DNA from: an uncultured Bacteroidota bacterium
GTDB lineage: Bacteria; Bacteroidota; Bacteroidia; JABEUT01
Length of the DNA: 34,059 nucleotides
NCBI GenBank assembly: GCA_903916255.1
Contig: CAIWVW010000053.1
Location: 1 to 34,059, forward strand
Direction: 5' to 3'
In this document: one piece after another, positions 11,983-29,514 of the stretch
Layout of the letters: each line of letters opens with the position of its first letter
How positions within the stretch are numbered: position 1 is the stretch's first letter
Made by a program: the position numbers and the translations under genes
The notes under the pieces: generated by a model
The model's database searches: none
What the model was told of the DNA's origin: nothing
Seen by the model: the letters and a program-made list of their open reading frames with translations, nothing else

Positions 11983-12573
11983 TTAATTATTGGATTTATT
12001 TATTTTTACTTGTTCAGTAAGTGTTTTTACGGCAAGCGCCAATACCCAGATTACTATTAAAAGTATACCAATAAGGAATAATACCAAATAATTGGCAAAT
12101 CCAAGTGAAGCAATAAAGGATGGTCCGGCTTTTTCATCGTCGGCTACTTTTTGAGTAGCTACGGTAATGTTATCCGGTCCGTTGGATGTCGAAGCAACTG
12201 TCGTGTTGGCTACAGGTGCAGCAGCAACTACAGGCTCACCTCCGGTCTTTACGAAAGCCAAAATGGTTTTAATATCATTGTCAGATAAAGCCTGGTCAGG
12301 CATTGGAATTTGATTGTTGTCGTTAAATAACTTCACGGCATCTTTATCGCCTGCTTTTACCAAAGTTTGCGAACTGTGAACCCATTTCAATATCCATTCT
12401 TCGGAATGCCTGTCCTGAACTCCTTTCAAATCAGGGCCCACCAATTTACCTTTACCAACGGTATGGCAAGCTCCGCAATTGGTGCGGAACATTTGAGCGC
12501 CATCTTGGGAATATGTTTTAGAAAAAGGAATTGCAACGACGGCAATTATTGCGATTATAAGTTTTGTTTTCAT
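11983..12573 (-). CDS. Membrane-anchored monoheme cytochrome c
   Basis: 196 residues from the ATG at 12573; an upstream in-frame start would add 26 residues without signal-peptide character, so I reject it. Order: signal peptide (1 to about 22, MKTKLIIAIIAVVAIPFSKT); heme-binding C33-G-A-C36-H37; the distal Met in QIPMPDQALSD; an Ala/Val/Thr-rich linker; and a C-terminal membrane helix (about 157-180, NYLVLFLIGILLIVIWVLAL) with a short basic tail. It is a class I cytochrome c on the outer face of the inner membrane, probably an electron carrier to the oxidase encoded nearby. It has its own Crp/Fnr-type promoter region upstream, which links it to the oxidase and hemN promoters. Confidence 0.9.
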   Translation of the reverse strand: MKTKLIIAIIAVVAIPFSKTYSQDGAQMFRTNCGACHTVGKGKLVGPDLKGVQDRHSEEWILKWVHSSQTLVKAGDKDAVKLFNDNNQIPMPDQALSDNDIKTILAFVKTGGEPVVAAAPVANTTVASTSNGPDNITVATQKVADDEKAGPSFIASLGFANYLVLFLIGILLIVIWVLALAVKTLTEQVKINKSNN

Positions 12574-12607
12574 GGTTATAGTATGAAAGTATGAGGTTAT
12601 TTTTTTG

Positions 12608-12650
12608 TAAAAGTATTTTGAACTTGTAGCCTGCGTTATGATAATTGTCA
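12608..12650 (-). promoter_or_regulatory. Crp/Fnr-type box and -7 element for cytochrome c
   Basis: Minus strand: TGTGA-CAATTA-TCATA (core TGA/TCA 12639-12650), with TACTTTTA (12608-12615, one mismatch to TAnnTTTG) exactly 33 bp downstream, centre to centre. The predicted leader is about 32 nt before the ATG at 12573. The geometry is the same as at the PTPS-hemN promoter. Confidence 0.68.
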
Positions 12651-12709
12651 CATTACTTTTTGATTCTTCTCATGTATGTGGGGTGAAGCTCTGTAATGTG
12701 CTGTGAATA

Positions 12710-17230: not shown

Positions 17231-17273
17231 CAATAATAGACACGGATACAGCCTTATTCTATGACTTTCATCA
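17231..17273 (-). promoter_or_regulatory. Crp/Fnr-type box and -7 element for the hmgA-paa operon
   Basis: Minus strand: TGTGA-TGAAAG-TCATA (core 17262-17273), then TATTATTG (17231-17238, one mismatch to TAnnTTTG) at exactly 33 bp between centres. The box core is identical to that before ctaC. The predicted leader is about 45 nt before the ATG at 17182. Confidence 0.68.
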
Positions 17274-17286
17274 CAGACTAAAAATG

Positions 17287-17994
17287 CTAGTCAAATATGT
17301 TGGCGAGTCTTAGTAGCTTTCCCTGGTCCACAATTTTTATTTTCTTTCCATCGAGGTGAATTACCCCTTCCCGGTCGAGTTCAAAAAGCAGACGGATAAC
17401 TGTTTCCCTTGCCGTTCCTACAATATTGGCAATATCTTCACGCGTCATGGCGACATTTAAGGTTGCATTGTCGCTTTCAAAACCATAGCTCTCCTTTAAT
17501 AGTAACAAACCTTGTGCAAGCCTTTCTTTTACGGATTTTTGTGCGATATCTGTAATGCCTCTTTCAGCCACTTTCAATTCATTCGATAGTAAGTGGATAA
17601 TTTTAAATGCCAGCTTCGGGTCCTTCTCTACCATACTTACAAATACTTTGGTAGGAATAAAACATACCGATGAATTTTCAAGCGCCACAGCAGAACAGGA
17701 ATACTTATCTCCGCTAAGGACAGCACGGTAGCCCATCACATCGCCATCTTTGCTGAGGTGAACTATATGTTCACGGCCATCAGACCCTGTTTGTGTAACC
17801 TTTACTTTTCCGTTGCTTATACAATATAAGCCATGCGGATAGGTGCCTTCTTCAAATATGGTTTCACCTTTTTTAAATTGCTGGCAGGTTTTTGCCGAGT
17901 CCATTACTTCTAAATCCATGGAGCCTACACTATCAAAAATGGAGCGCATCCGGGAATTGCATTGAAGGCAGGAAATATGTGCTGTTTGATTCAT
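17287..17994 (-). CDS. Crp/Fnr-family transcription regulator, possible Fe-S or redox sensor
   Basis: 235 residues from the ATG at 17994; a longer frame exists, but its extra 54 residues have no family character and would cover the promoter palindrome. Order: N-terminal ISCLQCNSRMRSIF; cyclic-nucleotide-binding-like beta-roll (about 35-130); dimer helix; winged helix (about 150-220). C9 and C12 match C20 and C23 of E. coli FNR, and C111 (SSVCFIP) matches C122. The residue in the place of C29 is S18; C37, C58 and C100 are further candidates. The recognition helix GTARETVIRLL has R196, E197 and R201 in the same spacing as the CRP residues that read TGTGA, and TGTGA-type boxes are found nearby. 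I infer an oxygen- or NO-responsive activator of the boxes in this window; ligand and direction are unproven. Confidence 0.88.
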   Translation of the reverse strand: MNQTAHISCLQCNSRMRSIFDSVGSMDLEVMDSAKTCQQFKKGETIFEEGTYPHGLYCISNGKVKVTQTGSDGREHIVHLSKDGDVMGYRAVLSGDKYSCSAVALENSSVCFIPTKVFVSMVEKDPKLAFKIIHLLSNELKVAERGITDIAQKSVKERLAQGLLLLKESYGFESDNATLNVAMTREDIANIVGTARETVIRLLFELDREGVIHLDGKKIKIVDQGKLLRLANIFD

Positions 17995-18039: not shown

Positions 18040-18107
18040 CAAACATGAGCGATGTATGTAAAAGATTGTGAGAAAAATCATATTTCGAGTGTGACCGGAG
18101 TCACACT
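18040..18107 (-). promoter_or_regulatory. Possible promoter of the Crp/Fnr gene
   Basis: Minus strand: CATGTTTG (18040-18047, one mismatch to TAnnTTTG) lies 54 bp, centre to centre, from the palindrome at 18088-18107. That would put the box about 61 bp before the start of transcription, the class I position, so the regulator could control its own gene. The support is weak because only one poor element is seen. Confidence 0.35.
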
Positions 18108-18134
18108 TTTTTGCCGTTTGCAGGCACAATTTTG
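18088..18134 (+). promoter_or_regulatory. Perfect CRP-like palindrome with plus-strand -7 element
   Basis: AGTGTGAC-CGGA-GTCACACT (18088-18107) is a perfect 8+8 palindrome and contains TGTGA-N6-TCACA, the classical CRP consensus. On the plus strand CAATTTTG (18127-18134, one mismatch to TAnnTTTG) follows at exactly 33 bp between centres, the same as at four minus-strand promoters in this window. It points to the small ORF at 18155. Confidence 0.65.
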
Positions 18135-18154
18135 CAGCATAAAATTTATACCAC

Positions 18155-18283
18155 ATGGAAACATTAACTCATTCGAAACACAAAGGCAGCAATACCTTGA
18201 TGTACTATTGCCAAATGTACACTGTACTATTTACCATCCTTGGAATTATAGTAGTCATCTGCGAAAAGACTTTTATAAAGTAG
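18155..18283 (+). CDS. 42-residue single-pass membrane peptide divergent from the Crp/Fnr gene
   Basis: ATG at 18155 to TAG at 18281-18283. The peptide begins METLTHSKHKG (the ATGGAAAC opening common in this window), then has a membrane-length hydrophobic part (MYTVLFTILGIIVVIC) and ends with EKTFIK. It is basic at both ends. The only sequence signals that make it a gene are this composition and the promoter arrangement at 18088-18134, which predicts a leader of about 17 nt. A longer frame on the same strand (18052-18363) starts upstream of the predicted transcript and has no protein-like features. I do not recognise a family. Small membrane peptides often serve as subunits or assembly helpers of terminal oxidases in other bacteria; applying that here is a guess. 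Confidence 0.5.
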   Translation: METLTHSKHKGSNTLMYYCQMYTVLFTILGIIVVICEKTFIK

Positions 18284-18312
18284 TTTTTTTCCGAGGTTTT
18301 TCTGAAACTGAA

Positions 18313-18440
18313 ATGTCACGGTTTTATACGTATTTGAAAATGGAAAAACGTCCCGTATCCTAATATGGGTATGGCTTTGAAACATGTCACGATTTTTTAA
18401 TATTTTGTGACATATTTCTTATCTGGCAAATGCGTGACAC
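18313..18440. repeat. Cluster of four GTGACA-type elements
   Basis: ATGTCACG at 18313-18320 and 18384-18391, TGTGACAT at 18406-18413 and CGTGACAC at 18433-18440. The second and third form an inverted repeat with 7-bp arms (18384-18390, 18407-18413). The first two are followed by a similar AT-rich tail (G or A, then TTTT). TGA-AACATG-TCA (18378-18389) also fits the palindrome found at the promoters. Confidence 0.6.
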
Positions 18441-18717: not shown

Positions 18718-18933
18718 CTACTCTCCTTTCCCGTATTTGCCTTTCAGCCAGAAGAAAAGTATTCCGCCGCTGATGATAGGCACGGACATTAGGAGAACGG
18801 TTGTGTTCAGATAAGCAGATTGGGTGCGTTTAGTGGCACCGGCTTGGCAGAGAGGGCAAGCAGCAACTTTATAGCTGATGGCTAATAGCTGATAGCTAAG
18901 AACTGCGAGAAATAGTAATACCTTAGTTTTCAT
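18718..18933 (-). CDS. Small exported membrane protein with CxxC motif
   Basis: 71 residues from the ATG at 18933; an upstream in-frame start 8 codons earlier would lie inside ctaB. Seen: a signal-peptide-like start (MKTKVLLFLAVLSYQLLAI), then AACPLCQAGATKRTQSAY with a C-x2-C pair near the predicted cleavage site, then one membrane helix (TTVLLMSVPIISGGILFFWL) and a basic C-terminus. It follows ctaB by one base, so it is the last gene of the oxidase operon. The CPLC pair outside the membrane could bind copper or heme or do thiol exchange during oxidase assembly; this is inference from place and motif. DNA coding for the signal region (18870-18897) is a 14-bp tandem repeat. Confidence 0.7.
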   Translation of the reverse strand: MKTKVLLFLAVLSYQLLAISYKVAACPLCQAGATKRTQSAYLNTTVLLMSVPIISGGILFFWLKGKYGKGE

Positions 18934-18934
18934 G

Positions 18935-19834
18935 TTACAAAAATTTAGCGAGCACAAGCACCATCAGCACAAAGGGCAGATAGGCAAAAGAACTGAACAT
19001 TAAACGCAGGGCGTTTTTATTGGTGCGGTCGGTATATAATTTATATGCGAAGCCTGAAAACCCTACACCTGCCAATACAAGCAGCCAGGTTACATTCACT
19101 CCGGCAGATTGGTACATGTAAAGCAATAATCCGGCAGGGATAATGAGGAACGTGGAAAGTAAAATAATGATGGCAGACGCTTTATTTCTTCCTCCTGCTG
19201 TCGGCAACATGCGGATACCTGCTTTGTGGTATTCATCATCCAACAACCATGCAATGGACCATGTGTGCGGAAACTGCCAAATAAACTGTATGGCAAAAAG
19301 TATTACGGCTCCAACGGTAATGCTGCCTGTTGCGGCAACACAACCAATCACCACCGGTAAAGAACCTGCCACTGCTCCGGGGACAATGGTTAGCGGGGTA
19401 ACTTTTTTCAAGGGAGTATAAATGAATGCGTATATCAGCATGGCAGAAAGGCCAAGCAATCCGCAAAGCATGTTTATTTTGAAAAGGCACAATGCGCCTG
19501 CACTACCAATTACTATTCCAAAAATGAGGGCTTCGGTAACACCCATTCGTCCGTCAGGCAAAGGGCGGGTAAGTGTGCGTTTCATCAGTTTGTCGGAATC
19601 TTTTTCAATCACCTGGTTAAAGGTATTGGCCGCGCCTGTAATCAGGAAGCCTCCGATAGATAAAAGCCAGATAGTGAGCGGGTCGACATGGCGCTGGGTT
19701 GCCCACAGGTAAGCCATAGAGGCAGAAAACACCACGAGGAAGGATAACCTCAACTTAATGAGCTGGGTATAATCGGCTAAGCGAGATTGGATCGTTTTCA
19801 CGGGGTGCAAAGATATACTACTTAACGAATCCAC
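18935..19834 (-). CDS. ctaB: Protoheme IX farnesyltransferase (heme O synthase)
   Basis: 299 residues. It adds a farnesyl group to heme b to make heme O, the precursor of heme A for the oxidase encoded upstream. It is a UbiA-type membrane enzyme with about nine helices. Seen: the polyprenyl-diphosphate motif in AANTFNQVIEKDSDKLMKRT, the RPLPDGRM segment, the cytoplasmic loop WSIAWLLDDEYHKAGIRMLP and the VTPLTIVPGAVAGSLPVVIG stretch. The frame begins with GTG at 19834, one base after the stop of the second cox3 gene, with AAGG just before; no ATG precedes the first helix. No ctaA (heme A synthase) lies in the window. Confidence 0.93.
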   Translation of the reverse strand: MDSLSSISLHPVKTIQSRLADYTQLIKLRLSFLVVFSASMAYLWATQRHVDPLTIWLLSIGGFLITGAANTFNQVIEKDSDKLMKRTLTRPLPDGRMGVTEALIFGIVIGSAGALCLFKINMLCGLLGLSAMLIYAFIYTPLKKVTPLTIVPGAVAGSLPVVIGCVAATGSITVGAVILFAIQFIWQFPHTWSIAWLLDDEYHKAGIRMLPTAGGRNKASAIIILLSTFLIIPAGLLLYMYQSAGVNVTWLLVLAGVGFSGFAYKLYTDRTNKNALRLMFSSFAYLPFVLMVLVLAKFL

Positions 19835-24140: not shown

Positions 24141-24183
24141 CAAAATAACAGCCTATCAAAAAGAGCCGTTATGACTTTCATCA
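24141..24183 (-). promoter_or_regulatory. Crp/Fnr-type box and -7 element for the oxidase operon
   Basis: Minus strand: TGTGA-TGAAAG-TCATA (core 24172-24183), then TTATTTTG (24141-24148, one mismatch to TAnnTTTG) with centres exactly 33 bp apart. The predicted leader is about 18 nt before the ATG at 24119. Confidence 0.68.
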
Positions 24184-24420
24184 CATTAAATTTTGCTTTT
24201 TATCATGTTTCGGAAAGCACTCTTGCTCACATTGTTTAAAAATCGCATAACACATTGATATTAAACAAAAATCACAATTTAAACTACACTACTGTGTCAA
24301 AGAAATCACACCGAAAATAATTTACAAAAAAGAATTAAGGTGAGACTAAAGTCACAGAATTTAGAACGCTTATTCTTTATAAGCAAACACCCAAATCCGG
24401 AGAAAATAGAAATTCTTATT
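24184..24420. other. Rest of the region upstream of ctaC
   Basis: AT-rich DNA with one more palindromic stretch, GTGA-GACTAAAG-TCAC (24340-24355), with a longer spacer (TGA-N8-TCA), and CGAAAATA (24312-24319) as a poor -7 candidate 32 bp away. This might be a second, distal promoter. Short frames of 20-24 codons exist on the minus strand without protein-like character. I see no other feature. Confidence 0.4.
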
Positions 24421-26785: not shown

Positions 26786-27838
26786 TCAGGAGAACTTTAC
26801 CACCTTTTCCAGCCCTTTAGGGTCATGGATAACAATTTCCCTTCCTTCAATATCGATAATCTTATCTGCTTTGAAGTCGGACAGTGTGCGGATGAGCGAT
26901 TCGGTGGAGGTACCTACCATTCCGGCTAAATCTTCACGCGAGGTGCGGATATTTTCACCGGGCTTTGCTTTCTTTTGTAAATCAAGAAGAACGTTTGCCG
27001 TGCGTGCCTTAACTGAATTGTAGGCCAGGCTGAGCAGGCGTTTTTCGTTTTCATTAATATTATTGGCGAGCATTTTAATAAAACGTGCCGATATTTCATG
27101 TTCGGAATAAACGAGCGAGAGAAAATCATTTTGCGGCATAAGCGCTAATTCGCATTCTTCCATAACTGCAGCCGAGTCGTTGTAATTGCCACCTTCCAAT
27201 ACAGGCAAATGCCCGAAGAAATCACCTTTTTCATAGGTTCCGGTAATAAATTCTTTTCCATCCAGATTTATCCGCCATGTTTTTACTTTTCCTTTATTTA
27301 TAAAGTAAACAAAGTTGGGGGAATCACCCTCGTGGTAAACGGAATCTTTTTTCTTGTAGGTGCGAACTTTGTATTCGGATGTGATTTTATCAGGTAAGCT
27401 GAATTCCTTAGCTTCATTAATAAATGAAATAAGGCCGCTCAAATCGCGGGTATAATTCTTTTTAAAAAAATCATTTCGTTTAAGGCGCATTTCCACTGCG
27501 TTCAGCAGTTCGGTATCATCGAAAGGTTTGGTTAAATAATCATCGGCACCCATATTCATTCCTTTGCGCATATCGCTTTTTTCAGCTTTTGCTGTAAGAA
27601 AGATGAATGGTATTCCGGCGGTTTCTATATCCTTGCTTAAAATGTGCAGGACACCATAGCCGTCCAAATCGGGCATCATAATATCGCAAATTATAAGGTC
27701 TGGTTTTTCTTTTTTAGCATAATCGACACCTACTTTTCCATTTTCGGCGGTAATTACGGCATAGTTGGCAAGGCTTAGAATTTCTGAGGTGTTTTCCCTC
27801 ATTTCGTTGTTGTCTTCTATTAAAAGTATTTTTTTCAT
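26786..27838 (-). CDS. Response regulator with CRP-type output (REC, cNMP-like, winged helix)
   Basis: 350 residues. Order: receiver (1 to about 120) with D52 in ICDIMMPDLDG, the Thr in FLTAK and the Lys in YLTKPF; a cyclic-nucleotide-binding-like beta-roll (about 145-255) with KKKDSVYHEGD and YEKGDFFGHLPVLEGG; and a Crp-type winged helix (about 285-345) with TSREDLAGMVGTSTESLIRTLSDF. It lacks the Cys pair of the other Crp-type protein in the window, so it seems to be controlled by phosphorylation rather than by a metal cluster. The recognition helix (TESLIR) is unlike the RETVIR of that protein, so target sites should differ. It lies 17 bp after the histidine kinase gene. Confidence 0.9.
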   Translation of the reverse strand: MKKILLIEDNNEMRENTSEILSLANYAVITAENGKVGVDYAKKEKPDLIICDIMMPDLDGYGVLHILSKDIETAGIPFIFLTAKAEKSDMRKGMNMGADDYLTKPFDDTELLNAVEMRLKRNDFFKKNYTRDLSGLISFINEAKEFSLPDKITSEYKVRTYKKKDSVYHEGDSPNFVYFINKGKVKTWRINLDGKEFITGTYEKGDFFGHLPVLEGGNYNDSAAVMEECELALMPQNDFLSLVYSEHEISARFIKMLANNINENEKRLLSLAYNSVKARTANVLLDLQKKAKPGENIRTSREDLAGMVGTSTESLIRTLSDFKADKIIDIEGREIVIHDPKGLEKVVKFS

Positions 27839-27855
27839 GGGTAGGTGGGTTACTT

Positions 27856-29421
27856 TTATACTATTTTAGGTTCTGAAATATGCTCTTTACTGATATGTAA
27901 AATAAAGGTGGTGCCTTTACTTTCGGCACTGCTGAATGAGATGGTTCCATTCAACAGGTCGGTGTATCGTTTTACTATGTTAAGGCCAAGGCCGGTTCCT
28001 TGTATGTTTGTGACATTCTTGGCCCTGAAAAACCTTTCGAACATGTGCGCCTGGTCAGTATCGGGTATTCCCATTCCGTGGTCTGTAACCACAAGGCTCA
28101 GGCCGGTTTTATCGATATTGCTGGTAAATTCGATAAGCGAATCTTCATCGGAGTATTTACTGGCATTTGAGATAAGATTATAAACTATATTTTTCAGCAT
28201 TTGCTTGTCCAGATATATGCTTGTTTCTCCTGTATGCTTATAATCGATTTTTTGGTTCCGTTTCAAGGTTCCTTGTATTTCCTCTACAAGTTCTTCTGCA
28301 AACTTGTCGATATATATATGGCTTGGCTTAATTTCCACTTTGCCTTGTTCCAATTTATCGAGCGACAGAAAATCATTCAGTATGCTGGTAAGGTTTCCAA
28401 CCGATGATTTAATCCTTTTAATATGTCGGGTAGTATTTTCTTTTACCGATGCAGGGTCGTCGACATCTGCTTTTGCCAGATATTTTTCCACCAGTGAGGA
28501 GGAGGATAGAATAGTGCTTAACGGTGTCCTGAATTCGTGCGATGCCATGGAAACGAATCGTGATTTTAATTCATTCAGCTGTTTTTCTTTTTCCAGGGCC
28601 CTTTTCATATCTTCCTCGGCTTTCTTTTTCCGGGTTATGTTTTGTTCCACCATTAATATCTGGTCTGTTTTGCCCTCTGTATCCGGAAGGGCAACCACAC
28701 TGATAAGGTATATATTATTGCGGACCTGCAATTCAAAAGTTGTATTGGTTCCTTTAAATACGGCCAGTAGTTTTTCACGCACTTCATCGCGTACTTCTGC
28801 CGGAAGGCGGGTAATGTAATCAGTACCGACCAGTTTTTCGCTGGTAATTCCATATTTGAATAATTCCGAACCTTCTGCAAAGACATATTTTAAATCCTTA
28901 TCGAAAACATTAATTGTTCCATCCGGAAAATTACGGGCCACAATCTGGTACAGGCGCCTGCTTTCTTCCAGTTCTTTGGTACGTTCTTCCACAAGGTTTT
29001 CGAGGTCCTCATTCATTTTCCTTATTTGCTGTTCGGCTTTGTACCTGTCTGTAATGTCGGTTACAAGGCCCATTACAAATGTTTTACCTTCCGTTTTAAA
29101 ATAGTTCAGGCTCACTTCTACTGGGAACTCTGTCATGTCTTTTCGTTGGGCCCACAAATCCATGCCAATTCCCATAGAGCGTTGTTTGGGCGAATGATTA
29201 TAGTCTTCCCTGTGTTTAACGTGCTCTTTGCGGTATTTTTGCGGGAGTAAAATTTCCAACTTTTGCCCTACCAGCTCATTGGTGGTATATCCAAACATTT
29301 CATTTGTTCTTGCATTAACAAGAACTATAGAGCCTTTTTCATCCGTTACAACCAAACTTTCGGCTGCGGTTTCAAATAATACTTTGTAAACAGGGCTTAG
29401 ATTCTCTTCCTTAGTGAACAT
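27856..29421 (-). CDS. PAS-domain sensor histidine kinase
   Basis: 521 residues from the ATG at 29421; a TTG at 29478 would add 19 residues and cannot be excluded. Order: first PAS (about 10-125) with TDEKGSIVLVNARTNEMFGY; coiled coil (about 127-155); second PAS (about 160-270); HisKA with MASHEFRTPLSTILSSSS (His about 295); HATPase with NLISNASKYS, DHGMGIPDTD and GTGLGLNIVKR. No membrane segment, so the kinase is cytosolic. It probably phosphorylates the REC-CRP regulator just downstream. The PAS ligand is unknown; I see no clear heme or flavin motif. It comes after usp, whose gene carries a Crp/Fnr-type box. Confidence 0.92.
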   Translation of the reverse strand: MFTKEENLSPVYKVLFETAAESLVVTDEKGSIVLVNARTNEMFGYTTNELVGQKLEILLPQKYRKEHVKHREDYNHSPKQRSMGIGMDLWAQRKDMTEFPVEVSLNYFKTEGKTFVMGLVTDITDRYKAEQQIRKMNEDLENLVEERTKELEESRRLYQIVARNFPDGTINVFDKDLKYVFAEGSELFKYGITSEKLVGTDYITRLPAEVRDEVREKLLAVFKGTNTTFELQVRNNIYLISVVALPDTEGKTDQILMVEQNITRKKKAEEDMKRALEKEKQLNELKSRFVSMASHEFRTPLSTILSSSSLVEKYLAKADVDDPASVKENTTRHIKRIKSSVGNLTSILNDFLSLDKLEQGKVEIKPSHIYIDKFAEELVEEIQGTLKRNQKIDYKHTGETSIYLDKQMLKNIVYNLISNASKYSDEDSLIEFTSNIDKTGLSLVVTDHGMGIPDTDQAHMFERFFRAKNVTNIQGTGLGLNIVKRYTDLLNGTISFSSAESKGTTFILHISKEHISEPKIV

Positions 29422-29514
29422 GAAGTGACTTATTAAGTCAGGGGAGGCCAAAGGTATATTATTTATTTTATTATCCAAATGATTTAAGTTTTTTATTTAG
29501 ATTTGAATAGAAAA

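Follow-up and report, generated by a model that had tools for sequence, protein, structure and literature searches.

Comparison with related genomes indicates that the 42-codon ATG frame at 18155-18283 of the window (the whole stretch of 34,059 nucleotides that was analysed) is a real, previously unannotated gene for a small membrane protein. The operator in front of it occupies the position of a class II Crp/Fnr activator, predicted at -41.5 upstream of a Bacteroidota sigma-A promoter, and this assignment is well supported by the sequence. We suggest, tentatively and with confidence just short of even, that the product is an accessory, non-obligatory small protein of the respiratory module under the same activator. 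The partner, the signal and the accessory role given below are those which we infer to be the most likely. Coordinates of the features are collected in Table 1.

Table 1. Features of the peptide locus and of the peptide copies with an FNR-type box.
Feature	Position	Strand	Remarks
Gene of 42-aa single-helix membrane protein, METLTHSKHKGSNTLMYYCQMYTVLFTILGIIVVICEKTFIK	18155..18283	+	From the ORF list of the window; kept in G002, G003 and G001, more distantly in G004 and G008
Crp/Fnr-family regulator, 235 aa, divergent	17287..17994	-	Pfam cNMP_binding and HTH_Crp_2
Crp operator, AGTGTGAC-CGGA-GTCACACT	18088..18107	.	Core TGTGA-N6-TCACA at 18090-18105; exact core and same spacing at five peptide loci
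-7 box, CAATTTTG	18127..18134	+	Consensus TAnnTTTG; fixed 36.5 bp from operator centre
Second Crp-like site, TGTGAGAAAAATCATA	18067..18082	.	One mismatch
Peptide copies with FNR-type box	L111 8038-8160 and L112 4703-4816		G004 and G001 (C4)

The first-pass annotation had proposed a gene of a 42-residue membrane peptide here, and the proposal is borne out: the frame is kept in relatives, running without stops or frameshifts in G002, G003 and G001, and its substitutions are coding-like. The closest relative is G002, with 88% protein identity, dS of 1.38 and dN of 0.12. Third codon positions hold 18 of the 27 base differences from it, and when the same substitutions were placed at random 10,000 times, the number of amino-acid changes was never so low. 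The DNA alignment to G002 spans 18155-18277 and is confined to the frame, the flanks being unmatched. Hence, the frame is taken as real because it is kept in relatives, dN is far below dS and the DNA match is limited to it. A 103-aa frame (18052-18363), which lies over the operator and is open in the window, was rejected as the product since it contains stops in G002, G003 and G001. Annotation routinely misses proteins of fewer than 50 residues, and Shine-Dalgarno signals are absent in Bacteroidota.

Two further elements lie nearby. Directly downstream of the gene lies an intergenic repeat (18306-18440) of roughly 110-150 bp that is dispersed in the genome, BLAST matching about ten more copies, and its predicted hairpins are strong (z -3.5); it has no Rfam match, the only Rfam match in the window being a tRNA, and it is outside the region of the peptide matched in G002. 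Between ctaB and crp, the gene of the divergent regulator, a small membrane ORF with a CPLCQAG motif (18718-18957, minus strand) is kept in G002, G001, G006 and G010.

The search of 60 related genomes gives peptide identities of 88% in G002, 58% in G003, 42% in G001 and 52% in G007, whose copy is degraded by a stop close to the N-terminus. A weak match in G004 was confirmed by a profile search, which also added a copy in G008 and a second one in G001 (C4). The peptide is thus present in 7 of the 11 genomes of the same uncultured Bacteroidota genus, one copy being degraded. As the completeness of several of these genomes is only 50-70%, the absence of a gene is weak evidence. Outside the genus, profile scans of class and phylum samples (395 genomes each, with some overlap) yielded no convincing match, only weak, stop-containing or embedded ones, and a scan of an 84,980-species collection with a single short pattern, which is insensitive, returned three genus members. 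No relative of the peptide was found in Pfam, NCBIfam or PDB, the Pfam and PDB tests being made with a profile of seven members at E up to 10. On these searches we class the peptide as a new family of small proteins, of a known kind and with a narrow range.

The exact site TGTGACCGGAGTCACA at the operator core, of the TGTGA-N6-TCACA form claimed upstream of the frame, is one of only five exact sites in the 3.74 Mb genome. The window as a whole has seven Crp-like sites with at most one mismatch against 1.0 expected, a number reached in none of 100 shuffles. The operator had been described as a perfect 20-bp palindrome; AGTGTGACCGGAGTCACACT indeed has two arms of 8 bp, but its central CGGA is asymmetric, so the palindrome is not perfect. 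The second site of Table 1, overlooked earlier, has a similar counterpart in G002 and none in G001 or G003, and could possibly serve crp on the opposite strand.

Five peptide loci (G000, G002, G003, G001 and G008) carry the exact CRP-type dyad, each time with its centre 36.5 bp upstream of the G that ends the -7 box. The box itself may be imperfect with respect to TAnnTTTG, reading TAACATTG in G008 and CTTCTTTG in G002. The 21 bp between site and box show only 1-11 identities per pair, which is near-random, so the site and the spacing are kept against a drifted background. In Flavobacterium the G of TAnnTTTG lies at -5 (PMC6847099), which places the operator centre at the predicted -41.5, the location of a class II dyad, and the start at 18139. 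The start at about 18138, 17 nt before the ATG, proposed in the first-pass annotation is therefore corrected by one position, to 16 nt before the ATG. Two further peptide copies, those of the last row of Table 1, have an FNR-type TGAT-N4-ATCA box instead of the CRP-type one. The distance to the -7 box is 58.5 bp in both, which puts the FNR-type box at about -63.5, some two helical turns upstream of the CRP-type position.

The same arrangement, which had been said to occur at other genes, is found there with identical spacing. In the own genome TGTGA-N6-TCAYA-N22-28-TTTG matches nine times; five of the matches have exactly the spacing of the peptide gene, and each of these five has a start codon shortly downstream. 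The genes are a pair of cytochromes c (C24), a response regulator (C34), the peptide, coxB and a tryptophanase- or tyrosine phenol-lyase-like gene on C62, named from its sequence and not by family search. With seven spacings possible, the chance that five of nine matches share one of them is about 0.03, the choice of spacing being allowed for. Matches at C42, C90 and C109 were discarded, as they lie inside longer frames and at other spacings. Two genes of the window, hmgA and that of a cytochrome c at 11983-12651, show the same spacing with one-mismatch boxes, as read by eye. The pattern thus indicates that the promoter geometry at coxB and at cytochrome c genes is that of the peptide gene. 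The hmgA and coxB promoters also carry an identical Crp-like site, TATGACTTTCATCACA, at 17260-17275 and 24170-24185; this shared site would make tyrosine breakdown and respiration parts of the same putative regulon.

The divergent Crp/Fnr-family regulator has a CRP-like recognition helix, GTARETVIR, and its other close homologues in the genome have the FNR-like (T/P)ESLIR. CRP with such a recognition helix reads TGTGA. We suggest that this regulator likely activates the peptide gene by binding the operator. Six orthologues all keep its cysteines C9, C12, C37, C58 and C111, of which C9, C12 and C111 align with cysteines of FNR, which makes redox or Fe-S sensing possible. Elsewhere in the window, a response regulator carries a fused Crp-type domain with the FNR-like helix STESLIR (26786-29478, minus strand) and adjoins a PAS histidine kinase; the fused protein is a candidate second regulator, for FNR-type boxes.

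The position beside a Crp/Fnr gene holds in relatives as well. The peptide gene is divergent to crp in G000, G002 and G001, divergent to a broken crp copy in G003 and directly downstream of crp in G008; the G004 copy and the second G001 copy are not beside crp, and the latter is without respiratory neighbours. Peptide and operator co-occur at the five CRP-type loci, and the crp loci in G006 and G010 have neither. The crp copy of G003 (L114 8165-8690) is missing its N-terminal part and is interrupted by an internal stop, with the adjoining peptide gene and operator intact. Since G003 keeps both despite its broken crp, the operator serves the peptide, and another regulator may act on it in this genome.

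The single hydrophobic stretch claimed for the peptide is evident, the best 19-residue Kyte-Doolittle mean being 2.15. Structure prediction from seven sequences gives a single helix over residues 7-41 (mean pLDDT 78); prediction of the peptide identified no partner. After Met1, four residues are invariant in the seven members, Y22, F26, E37 and F40, and they lie within a 60-degree arc, which is matched by 1.4% of random quartets. As the invariant residues, including a Glu, share one helix face, a specific protein contact is suggested, as would be expected for packing against a membrane partner.

The peptide gene is on the same contig as the haem-copper oxidase of the type found in the window in four genomes (G000, G002, G001 and G004). 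In G004 it is the first gene of a peptide-dps-coxB-coxA run, with dnaJ and a hibernation-factor-like gene opposite (names read from sequence). Linkage to or co-regulation with cox genes, as expected of an oxidase accessory subunit, is thus found both in the contigs of these four genomes and in the geometry of the coxB promoter. However, the crp and oxidase region is present in G006 and G010 with the peptide absent at that place, and in G003 and G008 the peptide is present and the window-type oxidase was not found, several genomes of the genus being incomplete. These mismatches speak against a fixed subunit of the window-type oxidase. Homology to a known haem-copper oxidase small subunit was found in neither Pfam nor PDB.

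We propose the following sequence of events for the accessory role.

Step 1: An activator of the Crp/Fnr family, most likely the regulator encoded divergently, would bind at -41.5. Its signal would be low oxygen, or a redox or nutrient shift, and with this signal the peptide would be made.

Step 2: The product, presumably one membrane helix with a polar N-terminus, would be inserted in the membrane. The face of Tyr22, Phe26, Glu37 and Phe40 probably packs there against a larger membrane protein.

Step 3: The partner would most likely belong to the respiratory module under the same activator, that is, the window-type haem-copper oxidase and its helpers. The peptide would act on it as an accessory, non-obligatory small subunit or stabiliser.

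Further points against the accessory role are the lack of sequence relation to any known oxidase subunit and the intact peptide and operator beside the broken crp of G003. The main rival explanation, possible if unlikely, is a stress or dormancy peptide made at low oxygen or starvation, which would lower the membrane potential or protect the membrane as a YohP-like protein without binding an oxidase. Peptides of this sort, such as YohP (PMC12719787), are typically of this size and have a single helix, the peptide persists where the window-type oxidase was not found, and the G004 neighbours, encoding Dps, DnaJ and a hibernation-factor-like protein, fit a stress role equally well. But the invariant face with its Glu suggests a specific protein contact, and the promoter type is common to coxB and cytochrome c genes. 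We regard it as unlikely that the peptide represents a new Crp/Fnr-controlled respiratory small-protein family whose different members have two operator types (CRP-type at -41.5 and FNR-type at about -63.5), acting as a removable modulator of the haem-copper oxidase rather than as a fixed subunit.

The arrangement with crp, divergent in three genomes and directly downstream in G008, could also point to regulatory feedback, in which the peptide would bind a membrane sensor, such as the PAS histidine kinase of the module, or sequester the Crp protein. This is improbable, as G003 retains the peptide with a broken crp and two copies, in G004 and G001, are away from it. That the peptide is an accessory of a membrane protein outside respiration, a transporter or other, is still harder to credit in view of the repeated linkage to crp and cox genes, even though many known small membrane proteins bind transporters and the second G001 copy is without respiratory neighbours. 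Finally, it is highly improbable that there is no gene at all, with the palindrome serving only crp, upstream of which it also lies, and the frame being either one of the common short chance frames or a shadow of the 103-aa frame that is open in the window, given the low dN, the stops of the longer frame in three relatives and the persistence of operator and peptide together, even in G003.

The accessory role in respiration is the reading that we prefer. The spacing of the promoter alone predicted the peptide and the comparative data agree, a result in favour of letting promoters guide gene discovery in Bacteroidota. Members of the Crp regulon in these uncultured bacteria could be sought by a simple rule, the constant 36.5-bp geometry. 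Should the peptide modulate an oxidase, the haem-copper oxidases would gain a regulated small protein.

Subunit IV of aa3 oxidases and CcoM/CcoQ of cbb3 oxidases have a short polar N-terminus, one membrane helix and cox-linked or co-regulated genes. The peptide shares all these features, however, it is without Pfam or PDB match and in some genomes occurs where the window-type oxidase was not found. CydX, the cytochrome bd small subunit (Pfam YbgT_YccB), is similar in its length of about 40 residues, its one membrane helix, its tie to respiration and a conserved acidic residue at one helix end. Unlike CydX, whose motif is YxxWxxGx15E/D (PMC4325964), the peptide lacks this motif, with no conserved W or G at its spacing, and has no Pfam match. 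Cytochrome bd (PF01654) is absent from all 11 genomes of the genus, the control genomes being positive, and membership in CydX was rejected on the missing motif and the missing oxidase. YohP of E. coli, a stress-induced single-helix small membrane protein of 27 aa (PMC12719787), resembles the peptide in being very short, with a single helix and presumed conditional expression; no sequence relation was found, and the peptide differs in its conserved face with an invariant Glu and in its class II Crp promoter. Last, the promoter is similar to class II CRP/FNR promoters in having TGTGA-N6-TCACA at a predicted -41.5 and a regulator with a CRP-type recognition helix, and it differs from them in the Bacteroidota TAnnTTTG -7 box and in a regulator whose cysteines align with those of FNR.
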